DNA of 5,150 nt, taken from positions 1 through 5,150 of the forward strand of contig JACRGO010000129.1 of assembly GCA_016212295.1 (NCBI GenBank), given 5' to 3'. Source of the stretch: Nitrospinota bacterium (GTDB taxonomy: Bacteria > Nitrospinota > Nitrospinia > JACRGO01). Below the pieces are notes generated by a model that searched no databases, was not told the origin of the DNA, and worked only from the letters and a program-made list of their open reading frames with translations. This document shows, one piece after another, positions 1-5,150 of the stretch; the first letter of the stretch is position 1, and the number at the start of each line of letters is the position of its first letter. A program made the position numbers and the translations under genes.

Positions 1-23
1 GCTGGAAATCATGCCGGCGGTGG

Positions 24-152
24 CTGAAAAATTTATTCCTTTAAAAATTCCCCTCTTGAGAGGGGTGGCCGAAGGCCGGGGTGTGTTAGCGTGTTTTTTA
101 TACCAACCGCATATTGCCCTTCAGGATAAACATTTTTTCCAAGACAGCTTCT
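24..152 (-). repeat. Composite repeat, left copy (inverted relative to 5010-5123)
   Basis: This copy has three parts. A 43-bp block at 46-88 is identical to the reverse complement of 5061-5103. A 27-bp block at 126-152 matches the reverse complement of 5010-5035 except for one inserted base. The AT-rich flank at 24-45 also resembles the other copy (ctgaaaa... then an A-run). The two conserved blocks are 37 bp apart here and 25 bp apart in the other copy. The 43-bp block contains two small palindromes: CCCCTC-TTGA-GAGGGG at 50-65 and GGCC-GAA-GGCC at 67-77. On the minus strand the repeat starts at the last base of the stop codon of the thioredoxin-like gene. Its form is that of REP-type dispersed elements. 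I cannot name the family or see a transposase that would mobilise it. Confidence 0.9.
43..65 (-). terminator. Candidate intrinsic terminator after the rib operon
   Basis: Read on the minus strand, a 6-bp G/C-rich stem (CCCCTC/GAGGGG, loop TCAA) is followed by AA and then five T. A second hairpin (GGCC-TTC-GGCC) lies just upstream. It sits about 90 bp after the stop codon of the last gene on that strand, so it plausibly ends the ribE-ribBA-thioredoxin transcript. The T-run is short, so it may be a weak terminator or mainly an mRNA 3'-end stabiliser. Confidence 0.5.
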
Positions 153-496
153 TATAAAAAATCAATTGCGTCGACTTCAGCTTCCGCCTTGCGCTTCTCT
201 TCTATTTCCACGTCCGCCTTCTCAACCGTCTTCATCAATACTTTTCGTTTGAATTCCATATAAGTTTTATAAACCGACACGATACCTTCCTCTTCCACCA
301 GGAAAAACGGGGCGGTGTCGATATCATGCTCCCTGGCCAATTTACTGCCCTCGGACCCGGGGTCGCGAAGGTCGGCGAACGCGGTCCTGTCGATAAACCG
401 CATCTCATTGCCGGCCTCCAGGCGTTCGGAGACTTCCCGGCATTTCCGGCATTCCTCCCCGTCCTCCATTATCTTTTTAACCAAAGTGATTTTCAT
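152..496 (-). CDS. Thioredoxin/glutaredoxin-fold small protein with CxxC motif
   Basis: A 114-residue cytosolic protein without signal peptide or membrane segment. It opens with a beta-strand-like stretch (MKITLVKKI), then a CxxC redox motif at C16-R-K-C19 in a helix-start context. A TAPF segment at 61-64 looks like the thioredoxin-fold cis-proline loop and is followed by a strand (FFLVEEEG). This spacing supports a thioredoxin/glutaredoxin-like fold, probably a dithiol oxidoreductase or thiol sensor. The last 25 residues form a very charged Lys/Glu tail ending AIDFL, which is not part of the core fold. The start codon lies 7 bp after the ribBA stop, so the two are almost certainly co-transcribed. 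There is no strong Shine-Dalgarno, so translational coupling to ribBA is likely. Its partner and role are unknown. Alternatives are a glutaredoxin relative or an accessory domain of sulfur metabolism. The fold is moderately sure; the function is not. Confidence 0.65.
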   Translation of the reverse strand: MKITLVKKIMEDGEECRKCREVSERLEAGNEMRFIDRTAFADLRDPGSEGSKLAREHDIDTAPFFLVEEEGIVSVYKTYMEFKRKVLMKTVEKADVEIEEKRKAEAEVDAIDFL

Positions 497-503
497 TAGC
501 CGC

Positions 504-1709
504 TCAAACCTTATTCAGTAAATGCCCCATCTTCTCCTGTTTCGTTTTCAGGTACTTGATGTTCTGTGGTTTGGGGGAAATTTCTATTGGGACCCTCTCC
601 ACGATATGGAGCCCGTATCCCTCCAGGCCCACGATCTTCCTGGGATTATTGGTCAGGAGCCGTATCTTCCCTATACCGAGGTCAACGAGGATCTGCGCCC
701 CGATGCCGTAGTCCCGCAGATCGGGATTGAAACCAAGGGTCTTGTTCGCCTCCAAGGTGTCCTCCCCCTGGTCCTGCAGTTCATAAGTCTTCAATTTGTT
801 GATCAGGCCTATCCCCCTTCCTTCCTGGTAAAGATACAGGAGAACGCCGGACGGACTTTTGGAAATGGCCTCCATCGCCTTATCGAGCTGCTCGCCGCAA
901 TCGCACCGGAAGGAATGAAAAACGTCGCCTGTCAGGCATTGGGAGTGGACCCTGACCAGGGTCTCCTTTTCCGGCTGAGGCTCTCCATGGACCAGGGCCA
1001 CGTGGATATGGCTGTCCAGGAGATTTTCGTAGGCGATGAGTTTAAAAACGCCGTATTGAGTGGGAAGGACGGTTTGGGCCATCCTCTTCACCAGTGATTC
1101 CCTGCGTATCCTGAAGTTGATCAAGGCTTCAATCGTCACCATCCTGAGTCCATAGCGGTCCGCGAATTCACGAAGCTCCGGGACCCTTGCCATTGAGCCG
1201 TCCTCGTTCATGATTTCGCATATAACTCCCGACGGGACAAGTCCGGCAAGACGCGCCAGGTCAACCGATCCCTCGGTTTGCCCGGTCCTGACTAAAACTC
1301 CGCCGTCAGCCGCGCGCAATGGGAAGACATGTCCTGGCTGTACAAGATCGCCTTTTTTATACCCGGGGTTGATGGCGGCCAGGATGGTTTTTGCCCTGTC
1401 AGCCGCTGAAATTCCGGTTGTCACGCCCTCCTTTCCGTCAATTGACACGGTAAAGGCCGTCTCGAAGTTCGACGTGTTTTGATCCACCATCATGGGAAGG
1501 CCCAGCTCTTCCACCCTTTCCCTGGTCAACGCCAGGCATATAAGCCCCCTGCCGTGCTTCGCCATGAAATTCACGGCTTCAGGCGTGACCTTTTCCGCCG
1601 CTACCACGAGGTCTCCCTCATTCTCACGGTCTTCGTCGTCCACCAGTATGATTATTTTCCCTTGCTTGAGGTCTTCTATTGCCTCTTCAATGGTGTTAAA
1701 CAGAGCCAT
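504..1709 (-). CDS. ribBA: Bifunctional RibBA: 3,4-dihydroxy-2-butanone-4-phosphate synthase / GTP cyclohydrolase II
   Basis: A 401-residue enzyme of usual length for the fusion, supplying both branches of riboflavin synthesis. The N-terminal domain (about 1-200) converts ribulose 5-phosphate to dihydroxybutanone phosphate plus formate. It shows the acidic loop [10 protein letters not shown] at 24-33, GHVFPLRA at 126-133 and [11 protein letters not shown] at 141-151. The C-terminal domain (about 206-401) opens GTP to the diaminopyrimidine. It has the zinc cysteines C258, C269 and C271 (HSQCLTGD...RCDCG), YQEGRGIGL at 294-302, DLRDYGIG at 330-337 and LLTNNPRK at 351-358. Q144 stands where many characterised DHBP synthases have the metal-binding His of GHTEA; I recall the Gln form in deltaproteobacterial homologues. 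The ATG is supported by a GGAG five bases upstream. ribE ends 21 bp before it and the thioredoxin-like gene starts 7 bp after it. Confidence 0.98.
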
Positions 1710-1714
1710 ATTTT

Positions 1715-1718
1715 CTCC
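1715..1718 (-). promoter_or_regulatory. Shine-Dalgarno site of ribBA
   Basis: GGAG with a five-base spacer (aaaat) to the ribBA ATG, inside the 21-bp ribE-ribBA gap. It fixes the ribBA start. It is the only clear canonical Shine-Dalgarno among the five genes of the window. Confidence 0.85.
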
Positions 1719-1730
1719 ACTAATAATTTG

Positions 1731-2345
1731 TTACGAAAAATTCATCTTGGCCGCAGCCGCGCGGACCATGAAATTTTCGACATATTTTCCTATCTGGTCG
1801 CACTCGATGTTGACCGCGCTCCCAATTTTTTTTGTTTTAAGGGTAGTGCTCTCGATAGTGTAAGGAATCAGGGCTATTGTGACGCGGTCGGCGCGGCGCC
1901 TCGCCACTGTGAGGCTGATCCCATCAACCGCGACAGAGCCCTTCTCTACAAAATACCTGGCCAGGTCCCTTGGTATTTTTATCTCAAGGTCAATTCCACT
2001 TCCAACTATTTTCCTTGCCGTGATTTTCCCGGTCCCGTCGATATGACCGGAAACAAGATGGCCACCGATCCTGTCACCAAGCCTGGCTGCCCGCTCAAGA
2101 TTCACCTTGGCCCCTCTTTTGTACAGTCCGGCAGTGGACCTGGACAAGGTTTCCGTGGACAAATCGAAGCTGACCCTCTCCTTATCTATTGTAACAGCGG
2201 TCATACAGACTCCGTCAACCGCTACGCTGTCCCCTTCCTTCAGGGCTTCCGTTATCCTGGCGCACTCCACCACCAAGGCCGCGGACTTGCCTTTTTTTAC
2301 AAAGGAAAATATTGCTCCAATTTCTTCAATGATTCCCGTGAACAT
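1731..2345 (-). CDS. ribE: Riboflavin synthase, alpha subunit type
   Basis: A 204-residue protein of normal family length that dismutates two molecules of 6,7-dimethyl-8-ribityllumazine to riboflavin and the diaminopyrimidine. It starts with the family signature MFTGIIEE, which settles the start codon. Two tandem lumazine-binding barrels are visible. The first has VDGVCMT at 43-49 and GGHLVSGHIDG at 94-104. The second has VDGISLT at 140-146 and the IPYTIESTTL segment at 160-169. A C-terminal helix (from about 183) would form the trimer contact, as known for the family. No Shine-Dalgarno precedes the ATG; the upstream bases are pyrimidine-rich (atacccccttt). The gene is also called ribC in some species. 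It is followed after 21 bp by ribBA, so the two form one transcript. A candidate promoter lies in the spacer before it. Confidence 0.97.
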   Translation of the reverse strand: MFTGIIEEIGAIFSFVKKGKSAALVVECARITEALKEGDSVAVDGVCMTAVTIDKERVSFDLSTETLSRSTAGLYKRGAKVNLERAARLGDRIGGHLVSGHIDGTGKITARKIVGSGIDLEIKIPRDLARYFVEKGSVAVDGISLTVARRRADRVTIALIPYTIESTTLKTKKIGSAVNIECDQIGKYVENFMVRAAAAKMNFS

Positions 2346-2400
2346 TCGGAAAGGGGGTATTTAAAGCGAAGTTGAAGGTGAAAAAATTTTATGTCCATTG

Positions 2401-2409
2401 ATTATAACA
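2401..2409 (-). promoter_or_regulatory. Candidate extended -10 promoter element upstream of ribE
   Basis: On the minus strand TGTTATAAT combines a perfect TATAAT with the TGn extension, about 55 bases before the ribE ATG. No good -35 hexamer lies 16-18 bases upstream, which is tolerable for extended -10 promoters. It would let ribE, ribBA and the thioredoxin-like gene be transcribed separately from ribD. The motif sits in AT-rich DNA, so a chance match is possible. I see no FMN riboswitch core in this 94-bp spacer and no clear terminator after ribD. Confidence 0.4.
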
Positions 2410-2439
2410 AATAAAATCAAACCGGTATTCCTTTCCCTA

Positions 2440-3543
2440 TCAAACTACATAGCCCGCCACCATTATATCTTCCCCCGCCCTTGAGACCTCCAGGTCCTTT
2501 ATTCGGACCGCGTCCTTCAGTTCCCTGGCCCCTTCAAGCCCGAACATCGGAAAGGCGCTTTCTCCTCCAATGATTTTCGGGGCGTAAAAGAAAACCACCT
2601 TGTCCACTATGCCGGAACGCAGGGCGGAGGCGTTGACCCTGCTCCCCCCCTCAATAAGCACGCTGGTTATTTCCATTGCCCCCAGCTTTTTCATGAGGTC
2701 CCGTAAGTCCACCATGCCGTTTTCTTCCCCTGTTTTAATAATTATAACACCCTTGGCTTCAAGGCGTCGCGTTTTTTCCAAAGCCGCTTTGCCGGTTGTG
2801 GCTATGATTGTTTTTTTTTCTCCGTCCGGTTGCAGCGCCTTGGAATTACCGGGTATCTTAAGCGCGCTGTCCAAAACAATGCGGAAAATATTTTTACCTT
2901 CTTTGCCCCTTGGCCTGGCGGTAAGCGAGGGGTCGTCACGGATAATCGTGTTAACGCCCACCATCACGGCGTCCACCTCGTCCCGCATTTCGTGCACCCT
3001 GGCGCGGGCCTCTTCTCCGGTTATCCATTTAGACTCTCCGCTGGGAGCGGCGGTCTTGCCATCCAAACTGGCCGCTGATTTCAGGGTGACGAAGGGTTTT
3101 CCAGTTGTGATGTGCTTGGCGAATATCTCGTTTGTTTTCCTTGCCTCGGCCTCCAGTATTCCGCATACGATTTCCAATCCAGCGGCCTTCAACTTTTCAA
3201 ACCCCTTTCCTGAAACCAGGGGATTGGGGTCTTGCATCCCGGCGAACACCCTTTTTATTCCGGCCCTTATCAGGGCGTCGCAGCATGGAGGGGTCCTGCC
3301 GGAATGGGCGCATGGCTCCAGATTGATGTAGAGGTCCGCCCCGTTTGCCTTGTCCCCAGCGGCATTCAATGCCTCGATCTCCGCGTGCGGCATTCCCGCC
3401 TTTTGATGGAACCCGGTCCCTATCACCTTCTCATCCTTGACCAGCACGGCCCCCACCATTGGATTTGGACTGGTCCGCCCCTTTGCCCTCAAGGCCAGGT
3501 CCAGGGCCATTTTCATAAAGCGCTCGCGCGTGGAAGGTCCCAT
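2440..3543 (-). CDS. ribD: Bifunctional RibD: diaminohydroxyphosphoribosylaminopyrimidine deaminase / reductase
   Basis: A 367-residue protein of usual size carrying out the second and third steps from GTP to riboflavin. The N-terminal cytidine-deaminase-like domain (about 1-145) shows TSPNPMVGAV at 24-33. Its zinc site is H53-A-E55 together with PCAHSGRTPPC at 77-87 (C78 and C87); C88 is an additional Cys. The C-terminal NADPH-dependent reductase domain (about 148-367) shows LKSAASLDGKTA at 154-165, SKWITG at 171-176, VGVNTIIRDDPSLTAR at 195-210, LIEGGSRVNA at 296-305 and KIIGG at 323-327. The first ATG fits the usual short leader before the first helix (RERFMKMALDLAL). It has no Shine-Dalgarno: the bases in that position belong to an AT-rich heptamer repeat. 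M10 is a less likely start. ribE follows 94 bp downstream on the same strand. Confidence 0.97.
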   Translation of the reverse strand: MGPSTRERFMKMALDLALRAKGRTSPNPMVGAVLVKDEKVIGTGFHQKAGMPHAEIEALNAAGDKANGADLYINLEPCAHSGRTPPCCDALIRAGIKRVFAGMQDPNPLVSGKGFEKLKAAGLEIVCGILEAEARKTNEIFAKHITTGKPFVTLKSAASLDGKTAAPSGESKWITGEEARARVHEMRDEVDAVMVGVNTIIRDDPSLTARPRGKEGKNIFRIVLDSALKIPGNSKALQPDGEKKTIIATTGKAALEKTRRLEAKGVIIIKTGEENGMVDLRDLMKKLGAMEITSVLIEGGSRVNASALRSGIVDKVVFFYAPKIIGGESAFPMFGLEGARELKDAVRIKDLEVSRAGEDIMVAGYVV

Positions 3544-3551
3544 AAAAGATA

Positions 3552-3579
3552 TTTCAAATTTCAGATTTCAGATTGGAAG
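3552..3579. repeat. Heptamer array (tttcaga) abutting the ribD start
   Basis: Consecutive 7-bp units tttcaaa, tttcaga and tttcaga, then a degenerate ttggaag, on the plus strand. The array ends 8 bp before the ribD ATG, so it makes up the mRNA leader where a ribosome binding site would be expected. Nothing in it resembles a known regulatory element. Confidence 0.7.
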
Positions 3580-3597
3580 AATACAAAGTCTTTTTAC

Positions 3598-3658
3598 CAC
3601 AAAGCAGGCACAAAGATCACAAAGTTTTTTCTCAGCGTCCCTTGTGAATTTTTTGTGT
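3598..3658. repeat. CACAAAG repeat cluster in the cheB-ribD spacer
   Basis: CACAAAG occurs at 3598-3604, 3609-3615 and 3618-3624. It is followed by partly complementary cttgtgaa (3641-3648) and tttgtgtg (3652-3659), so the cluster can fold as an imperfect hairpin. It is related in design to 4802-4884, where the heptamer is CACTAAG/CACGAAG and the right arm is CTTTGTG. It lies directly after the cheB stop, with no T-run that would make it a clear terminator. Confidence 0.65.
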
Positions 3659-3669
3659 GCTTTAATGAC

Positions 3670-4761
3670 TTACACCATGTTGAGCAATTCACCGGCCACG
3701 TTGGAGAGGGGGACTATCTTGTCGGCTATGCCGAGGTCCACCACGGCCTTAGGCATGCCGTACACGACGCAGGTCTCCTCGTTTTGGGCGACTATCCTGC
3801 CGTTGGAATCCTTGATGGCCTTCATGCCGTCGCGGCCGTCGTGGCCCATGCCGGTAAGGATCACCCCTATGCTTGATCCTCCGTAAACCTGGGCCGCGGA
3901 AAGCGCCATCTGGTCCACTGAAGGACGGTGGAGGCTGTTTGAGGGTTCGGGGTTGAGCTTGACGCGGACTTCCGCTGAGTGGACGCGCCTGAATGTGAGA
4001 TGAAACTCTCCGGGAGCTATCAATGCGACGCCGGGTTTAATCGCCTCCCCATCTTCAGCGGTTTTCACCTGGATCGAACTGATTTGGTTCAGACGTTCGG
4101 CGAAGGGGGGAATAAAGGAGGTGGGCATGTGCTGGACTATGGCGATCCCGACCGGGAAATCCTTTGGAATCTGGGACAAGACGTCCTGAAGGGCCTTTGG
4201 TCCGCCAGTGGAGGAGCCGATGGCCACTATGCTGGCTTTTCCATGCGAGGACCTTTGGGGCATGGCATTGGCATAAGCCGGCGGGCCGGGCTTTTGAAAA
4301 CCGGGGCGTGAAAGATCCATTTGGTGAAGGGGCGCGGTTTTTTTAAAGGCTATTCTTCTATAGGCCACTGCCTTGACCTTGGCCACGAGATCGTCCCTTA
4401 TCTGGACGATGTTCAGGGAGAGGTTATCCAGGTTTTTCGGAATAAAGTCAACGGCGCCCATTTCCAATGCCTGGAGCGTGGCGTGGGCGCCTTCAACGGT
4501 GAGGGAACTCAGCATCAGCACTGGGAGAGGGGTCTTTTCCATGATGATTTTAAGGGCCGTCAAGCCGTCCATGCGGGGCATCTCTATATCAAGAGTGACC
4601 AAGTCGGGTTTCAGGGAGGCTATTTTATTGATTCCATCCTCTCCGTCCCTGGCGGTCCCTACCACTTCCAGCGAAGGGTCGGAGTCTATCATGTTGGAGA
4701 TGGCCTTGCGCATGAAGGCCGAGTCGTCAACAACAAGGACCTTGATTTTTTTTATTGTCAT
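3670..4761 (-). CDS. cheB: CheB: protein-glutamate methylesterase/glutaminase response regulator
   Basis: A 363-residue protein of normal length that demethylates and deamidates chemoreceptors during adaptation and is switched on by phosphorylation from CheA. The receiver domain (about 5-125) has the acidic pair D12-D13, phospho-acceptor D58 in LDIEMPRMDG, S85/S86 and K109 in FIPKN. A linker rich in Pro, Gln and His (about 140-172) leads to the methylesterase domain (about 175-363). There the catalytic triad is readable as S184 (IGSSTGG), H211 (VQHMP) and D308 (LTGMGHDG). The ATG is preceded by eight A and no Shine-Dalgarno, and codons 4-6 contain another A8 run. No other chemotaxis gene is in the window; its partners may lie upstream beyond the repeat region. 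It is separated from ribD by 126 bp of repeats, so shared transcription is possible but unproven. Confidence 0.98.
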   Translation of the reverse strand: MTIKKIKVLVVDDSAFMRKAISNMIDSDPSLEVVGTARDGEDGINKIASLKPDLVTLDIEMPRMDGLTALKIIMEKTPLPVLMLSSLTVEGAHATLQALEMGAVDFIPKNLDNLSLNIVQIRDDLVAKVKAVAYRRIAFKKTAPLHQMDLSRPGFQKPGPPAYANAMPQRSSHGKASIVAIGSSTGGPKALQDVLSQIPKDFPVGIAIVQHMPTSFIPPFAERLNQISSIQVKTAEDGEAIKPGVALIAPGEFHLTFRRVHSAEVRVKLNPEPSNSLHRPSVDQMALSAAQVYGGSSIGVILTGMGHDGRDGMKAIKDSNGRIVAQNEETCVVYGMPKAVVDLGIADKIVPLSNVAGELLNMV

Positions 4762-4801
4762 TTTTTTTTGAGTGACTAAAGTTTGAATTAAATTTTTTTT
4801 G

Positions 4802-4884
4802 CCACTAAGCCACTAAGACACTAAGGCACGAAGATTCACGAAGCTTTATCAAGCTGTTCTTTGTGAAGCTTAGCGCCTTTGTGG
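4802..4884. repeat. CACTAAG/CACGAAG array forming a long imperfect palindrome
   Basis: CACTAAG sits at 4803, 4811 and 4819, then CACGAAG at 4827 and 4837, giving steps of 8, 8, 8 and 10 bp. The right side carries CTTTGTG at 4859-4865 and 4877-4883. Outer arms ccactaag (4802-4809) and ctttgtgg (4877-4884) are largely complementary. Inner arms ttcacgaag (4835-4843) and ctttgtgaa (4859-4867) pair with one G-T. The layout suggests a cruciform or long RNA stem-loop. I recognise this kind of sequence as a common dispersed intergenic repeat, with no function known to me. Confidence 0.75.
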
Positions 4885-4926
4885 CGTATTTGGACTTATC
4901 GCCCTTCGGGCGGACTTTAAAAAATT

Positions 4927-4964
4927 GAACATCGAACATCCAACATTGAACGTCGAACGTCGAA
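4927..4964. repeat. 7-bp tandem array (gaacatc / gaacgtc)
   Basis: Five consecutive 7-bp units, gaacatc, gaacatc, caacatt, gaacgtc and gaacgtc, plus a final gaa. The period is exact and units vary at only a few positions. It is intergenic and not part of a visible reading frame. In form it resembles heptanucleotide short tandem repeats described in cyanobacteria, though the sequence differs. Confidence 0.8.
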
Positions 4965-5009
4965 AAAGGAAGAAAGGATTTAAAAAGTAAAATGAATTTT
5001 TCTTACTTC

Positions 5010-5123
5010 AGAAGCTGTCTTGAAAAAATGTTTATACTGAGGCATGAATAAGAAGCCCCTTAACACACCCCGGCCTTCGGCCACCCCTCTCAAGAGGGGA
5101 ATTTTTTAAAAACAAATTTTCAG
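5010..5123 (+). repeat. Composite repeat, right copy (inverted relative to 24-152)
   Basis: The conserved 26-bp block (5010-5035, agaagctgtcttg... to gtttat) is followed after 25 bp by the 43-bp double-hairpin block (5061-5103). The 43-bp block is identical in reverse complement to 46-88. The similarity continues through an A/T flank to cag at 5121-5123. Hairpins are GGCC-TTC-GGCC at 5072-5082 and CCCCTC-TCAA-GAGGGG at 5084-5099. The copy lies about 4.9 kb from its partner and faces the opposite way. Confidence 0.9.
5084..5107 (+). terminator. Terminator-like hairpin in the right composite repeat
   Basis: A 6-bp stem CCCCTC/GAGGGG with loop TCAA is followed by AA and six T on the plus strand. 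It would stop rightward transcription, but no plus-strand gene precedes it in the window. It may therefore only be an intrinsic property of the repeat. Confidence 0.35.
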
Positions 5124-5150
5124 ACGCCGTTGACAACTCAAATTTCTGAA

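Follow-up and report, generated by a model that had tools for sequence, protein, structure and literature searches.

Five genes at this locus are flanked by inverted copies of one composite repeat, and the question is whether this arrangement marks a genetic unit or has some other origin. The window, by which we mean the whole stretch of DNA that was analysed, is exactly 5150 bp long and is the entire contig C85 of what is most likely a Nitrospinota MAG, a 3.74-Mb assembly of 237 contigs. All five genes lie on the minus strand. They are the gene for a 114-aa hypothetical protein (152-496), ribBA (504-1709), ribE (riboflavin synthase, lumazine-binding; 1731-2345), ribD (2440-3543) and cheB (3670-4761); all are host genes lying outside the repeat element, which the first of them abuts at its 3' end.

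When the window was compared with itself, inverted arms were detected at 29-101/5048-5120, 121-139/5022-5040 and 134-167/4995-5028. The two inverted copies of a two-block repeat described in the original prediction do exist, and their hairpin block is as well conserved as was claimed, with a double hairpin (CCCCTC-TTGA-GAGGGG / GGCC-GAA-GGCC, then GGGGTGTGTT) matching exactly at 50-87 on the plus strand and, inverted, at 5062-5099 on the minus strand. The limits given for the two copies, 24-152 and 5010-5123, were wrong, however; their true extents are 1-151 and 5011-5150, reaching the contig ends. A pattern search located a terminal inverted repeat at 135-151 (minus strand; GAAGCTGTCTTGGAAAA, with one mismatch) and at 5011-5027 (plus strand; GAAGCTGTCTTGAAAAA). 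The window contains no transposase, as had been noted, and an Rfam search of it gave no match.

The nature of these copies became apparent from the genome as a whole. The 38-bp hairpin block occurs at 129 places at up to 3 mismatches, compared with none for a reversed control, which bears out the suggestion of an abundant genome-wide repeat with REP-like hairpins. Most blocks come in pairs that face outward, with a variable, AT-rich core between them, and an inverted partner is present for 54 of the 63 hairpin copies for which 255 bp or more of inward sequence is available. Beyond block and arm, full copies carry the terminal repeat GAAGCTGTCTTGAAAA at both ends, giving a layout of terminal inverted repeat, A or B arm, hairpin block, AT-rich core, hairpin block, other arm and terminal repeat; the A and B arms differ from each other, as judged by reading. 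What had been described as a separate 26-bp block is this terminal repeat together with a few arm bases. That the two blocks form a single unit was also correctly anticipated, in that the terminal repeat is found 24-68 bp outward of the block in 80 of the 108 hairpin copies with enough flank. In the other 28 it is unrecognisable on that side, a point against our best reading: the ends may have decayed, or the hairpin pair may have spread on its own.

Full copies measure 260-364 bp, mostly near 310 bp, and the majority have TTA..TTA or TAA..TAA at their flanks. A TNA trinucleotide follows the terminal repeat in 74 of the 80 hairpin copies that have one (33 TTA, 32 TAA, 5 TGA and 4 TCA). A full copy folds 14 standard deviations better than its shuffles. 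Identity between copies is 0.99 in the block, 0.93 in the terminal repeat, 0.66 in the spacer and 0.63 in the inner flank, the first two values owing something to the mismatch limits of the copy search. The element is thus short, present in many copies, bounded by terminal inverted repeats and a target duplication, and without a transposase gene; it is a MITE, most likely of the IS5 type. A 73-bp copy on contig C207 (locus L095) has both ends and the TTA duplication with the hairpins absent; it may be an empty ancestor or the product of a deletion.

Set against this layout, each repeat in the window is only an A-type half (arm types by reading) of a palindromic element of about 310 bp cut by the contig end, and not the complete copy that it was taken for. 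The left copy (1-151, minus strand) consists of part of the AT-rich core, the hairpin block and the terminal repeat, its other half being off the contig; the right copy (5011-5150, plus strand) is cut 140 bp inside the element. By the TNA rule their outer flanks are TTA/TAA at 152-154, as expected of a 3-bp target duplication, and TCA at 5008-5010.

The ends of the window show how this came about. Its left end shares exactly 141 bp with the start of contig C16 and with the end of C177, which is the pattern that an assembly fork at k = 141 would produce; the right copy differs from the start of C35 by one base, as judged by reading. A hand count gave 49 contig ends within copies of the MITE family, of which 40 lie 129-141 bp from the element edge, as in the right copy of the window. 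Contigs C85, C170, C173 and C212 have MITE copies at both ends. Contigs break within the MITE because its repeated words exceed what the assembler could cross, as is shown for the left end, and since the MITE is palindromic, a contig lying between two such breaks is expected to have mirrored half-copies at both ends. The bracketed five-gene block is therefore an assembly boundary. We conclude, with a probability of roughly 0.93, that the window is a single contig that breaks off at each end within an insertion of the same non-autonomous, palindromic MITE, and that the cheB-rib genes would be ordinary chromosome separating two independent insertions. Contig ends in repeat-rich MAGs are able to mimic bracketed cassettes in this way, and false cassettes can be checked for by asking whether a contig end overlaps several others by one constant length, 141 bp in this case.

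The original prediction had also proposed that the repeats are the ends of a mobilised cassette. This found no support in a sister genome, which has the order cheB-ribD-ribE-ribBA as well and then a gene that its sequence marks as lipA-like; ribD-ribE-ribBA were also together in 6 of the 7 other relatives read. Because the sister species keeps this order, no cassette is needed to account for it. The same gene order speaks against a mobile cassette or composite transposon, and so do the outer flanks, TTA on the left and TCA on the right. It is likewise highly improbable that the cheB-rib segment is inverted or mobilised through the inverted copies: the two copies are indeed inverted, 4.9 kb apart and identical in their hairpin block, but the sister order is unchanged, the differing outer flanks leave no single duplication around the whole segment, and recombination would not single out this pair because many equivalent copies are scattered through the genome. 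The 38-bp block itself is absent from the sister genome at up to 3 mismatches. That genome carries three hairpin variants with a longer loop, none of which was found on its cheB-rib contig, as far as the scans show. With up to 3 mismatches allowed, the terminal repeat matched 58 sites there and the control 19, and since none of the 58 was better than 2 mismatches the sister genome has no recognisable MITE copy.

As a non-autonomous element, the MITE would have depended on a transposase supplied elsewhere. On contigs C212 and C23 the terminal repeat also occurs without hairpins, there marking the ends of an IS. The start of C212 reads inward into MYQSDLSEREWELIGHHFEPK, and the end of C212 and the start of C23 encode FAWLGNFRRLSKDYEILTRSEENMVRIAMLRITVAKCI-stop. 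This 38-aa C-terminal fragment matches the end of the NCBIfam model transpos_IS5_3 (NF033580; E = 7e-6) and Pfam DDE_Tnp_1_2 (PF13586; E = 0.003), both scores falling below the curated, whole-protein cut-offs, as a fragment would be expected to do; the 21-aa N-terminal fragment gave no match. Only the ends of the parent IS were assembled and no complete copy is present in the assembly, nor did a search of the genome for PF13340 return any hit. Five transposase loci of the DDE_Tnp_1 family (PF01609) were considered as parents and rejected, as none carries the MITE terminal repeats. The shared ends, the size of the target duplication and the two short coding fragments are the grounds for IS5 parentage, and movement of the MITE by an IS5-type transposase is most likely, as the best inference from sequence and not as proof: an IS5-family IS with the same ends would have supplied the transposase that spread it. 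The resemblance to the IS5 family lies in the 3-bp TNA duplications, in the terminal repeat that MITE and IS ends share, and in the transpos_IS5_3-like C-terminus encoded at an IS end; the putative parent is known here from IS ends, with no complete autonomous copy. We also observed a solo, diverged IS right end inside contig C219 (near 10,216; locus L098), adjoining unrelated sequence.

The hairpin block has a much wider distribution than this genome. A degenerate hairpin pattern matched at least 71 stretches, and among the matches listed these were from Opitutia/Verrucomicrobia, Aminicenantes, Ignavibacteria, Zixibacteria, Bacteroidetes, Nitrospinia, Chlamydiota, Planctomycetota, Chloroflexi, Bacillota and Falkowbacteria. 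The block thus spans about 10 phyla among the matches listed, nearly all of which come from MAGs, where binning may err. Copies number 1-163 per genome in 25 block-bearing genomes, with none in the controls; no copy was found in viral contigs or plasmids, and the hairpin sequence was not found in the full text of papers. Stem 2 covaries, as indicated by an innermost free pair that is complementary in 98.6% of copies, compared with 43% on average and 60% at most after shuffling. The block is, like a REP, a short hairpin of conserved structure dispersed in many copies. A cross-phylum, REP-like palindrome would, we infer, ride inside the MITE, kept near-identical by selection or gene conversion.

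A role for the hairpins in transcription termination was weighed against this. They could serve as terminators for reads entering from either side, in which case the MITE would insulate neighbouring operons. In a terminator scan of the window the two blocks gave the stems richest in GC, each with a T run after it and each reading inward into the element; the window as a whole has no excess of terminator-like sites (6, against a shuffled mean of 7.8), and termination does not account for why stem 2 and the GGGGTGTGT tag are conserved. We regard this explanation as unlikely.

The literature searched names no mobiliser for near-identical extragenic hairpins of distant phyla. An association with RAYT transposases, which the original prediction had raised, did not hold, the strict block being found in 0/30 RAYT loci of block-bearing genomes compared with 11/30 DUF559 loci; others of the DUF559 loci have different hairpins. 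The source genome itself has two Y1 hits, and the one that was examined (L263) is without the block. A bracket test independent of hairpin sequence, which scored an inverted repeat (score of at least 19) between the 220 bp on each side of a gene, was positive in block-bearing genomes for 21 of 23 DUF559 genes, 2 of 92 shifted positions, 3 of 212 random windows, 0 of 8 ribD genes and 6 of 18 RAYT genes. As these genomes were picked for having the block, the figure of 21/23 is biased upward; among Nitrospinota DUF559 genes, which were not so picked, the test was positive for 5 of 26, against 0 of 103 shifted positions. The bracketing hairpins around DUF559 genes belong to several families. Elsewhere in Nitrospinota, DUF559 flanks at loci L346, L356 and L359 have inverted pairs of the hairpin families CCTTCTCCCCGGGTGGGAGAAGG, GGAGCCTGCCCTGAGCCTGCCGAAGGG and CCCCCTTC..GAAGGGGG. 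The literature searched contains no report linking DUF559 genes with flanking inverted repeats or palindromes, and a strong association with one small nuclease family provides a mobiliser candidate that is directly testable.

The source genome has one DUF559 gene, on contig C229, with variants of the block around it. In the region 1193-2124 of this contig (L291) the gene (1468-1848) lies between two near-identical inverted hairpin pairs of about 175 bp, which are in direct orientation and about 758 bp apart, and tandem units of about 31 bp occur just past the gene. On contig C174 (near 21,800; L093) the usual hairpin of a MITE half is replaced by the subtype seen at the DUF559 locus (GGCGCTCCGCGCC, CCCCTCCAAGGAGGGG). 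This suggests exchange between the MITE and free hairpins; simple descent gives no explanation for it, and it counts against our best reading.

Vsr-like EDxHD homing endonucleases exist, and Vsr-related folds drive the mobility of some introns. As a hypothesis only, and one held tentatively, double hairpins (CCCCTC..GAGGGG-TGGC..GCC-GGGGTGTGT and other families) might spread by or with DUF559 Vsr-like nucleases encoded between inverted copies, paralleling RAYT and REP, and here might have been captured by an IS5-type MITE and raised above 110 copies. The blocks face inward around DUF559 and outward in the MITE, which hence cannot be regarded as just a DUF559 unit that has lost its gene.

A stronger form of this idea gives the hairpins priority over the MITE: the hairpin pair would itself be a mobile or maintained REPIN-like unit, a DUF559 Vsr-like nuclease would act on the hairpins once extruded, in the role that RAYT has for REPs, and the ends of IS5 type in this genome would have been acquired later, raising the copy number. 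The spread of the block over many phyla and its copy numbers, the covariation of stem 2, the inverted repeats bracketing DUF559 genes both in block-bearing genomes and in Nitrospinota, and the block variants around the DUF559 gene of the source genome all agree with it. So does the higher conservation of the block compared with the terminal repeat and spacers, but the mismatch limit of the copy search partly favours that value. The opposite orientation of the pairs in the MITE and around DUF559, the presence of the strict block in only 11/30 DUF559 loci, and the lack of a DUF559 match in 9 of the 25 block-bearing genomes (most of them MAGs, and perhaps incomplete) argue against it, and we consider it doubtful. 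Our preferred reading of the element remains an IS5-type MITE that carries the hairpins.

Comparable elements have been described. Prokaryotic MITEs include QMITE2 of Coxiella and Chunjie of Geobacter, and some QMITE2 copies have lost their ends and resemble REPs (PMC10969869). The element described here is likewise palindromic, short and non-coding, occurs in many copies and has short target duplications outside its terminal inverted repeats, and some of its copies are also without ends and REP-like. It differs in carrying two double hairpins that also occur across phyla outside the MITE family; no MITE with cross-phylum double hairpins is described in the literature searched. With REP and REPIN elements, which are associated with RAYT transposases (PMC3116915, PMC3733652), the block shares small extragenic hairpins, often in inverted pairs, and compensatory changes, whereas its association is with DUF559 and not RAYT. 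Caulobacter VsrA is a Vsr-like PD-(D/E)XK nuclease with a DUF559 domain (PMC12907096), and the hairpin-flanked gene found here belongs to DUF559.

Two minor features of the window are also of note. The TTA target site at 152-154 also provides the 114-aa gene with its stop codon (TAA), and stop codons may be favoured as TNA insertion sites. Low-complexity intergenic strings occur at 3598-3665 (ACCACAAAGCAGGCACAAAGATCACAAAG), 4801-4880 (CACTAAGCCACTAAGACACTAAGG) and 4926-4963 (GAACATCGAACATCCAACATTGAACGTCGAACG), and resemble other dispersed repeats known from unrelated bacteria.
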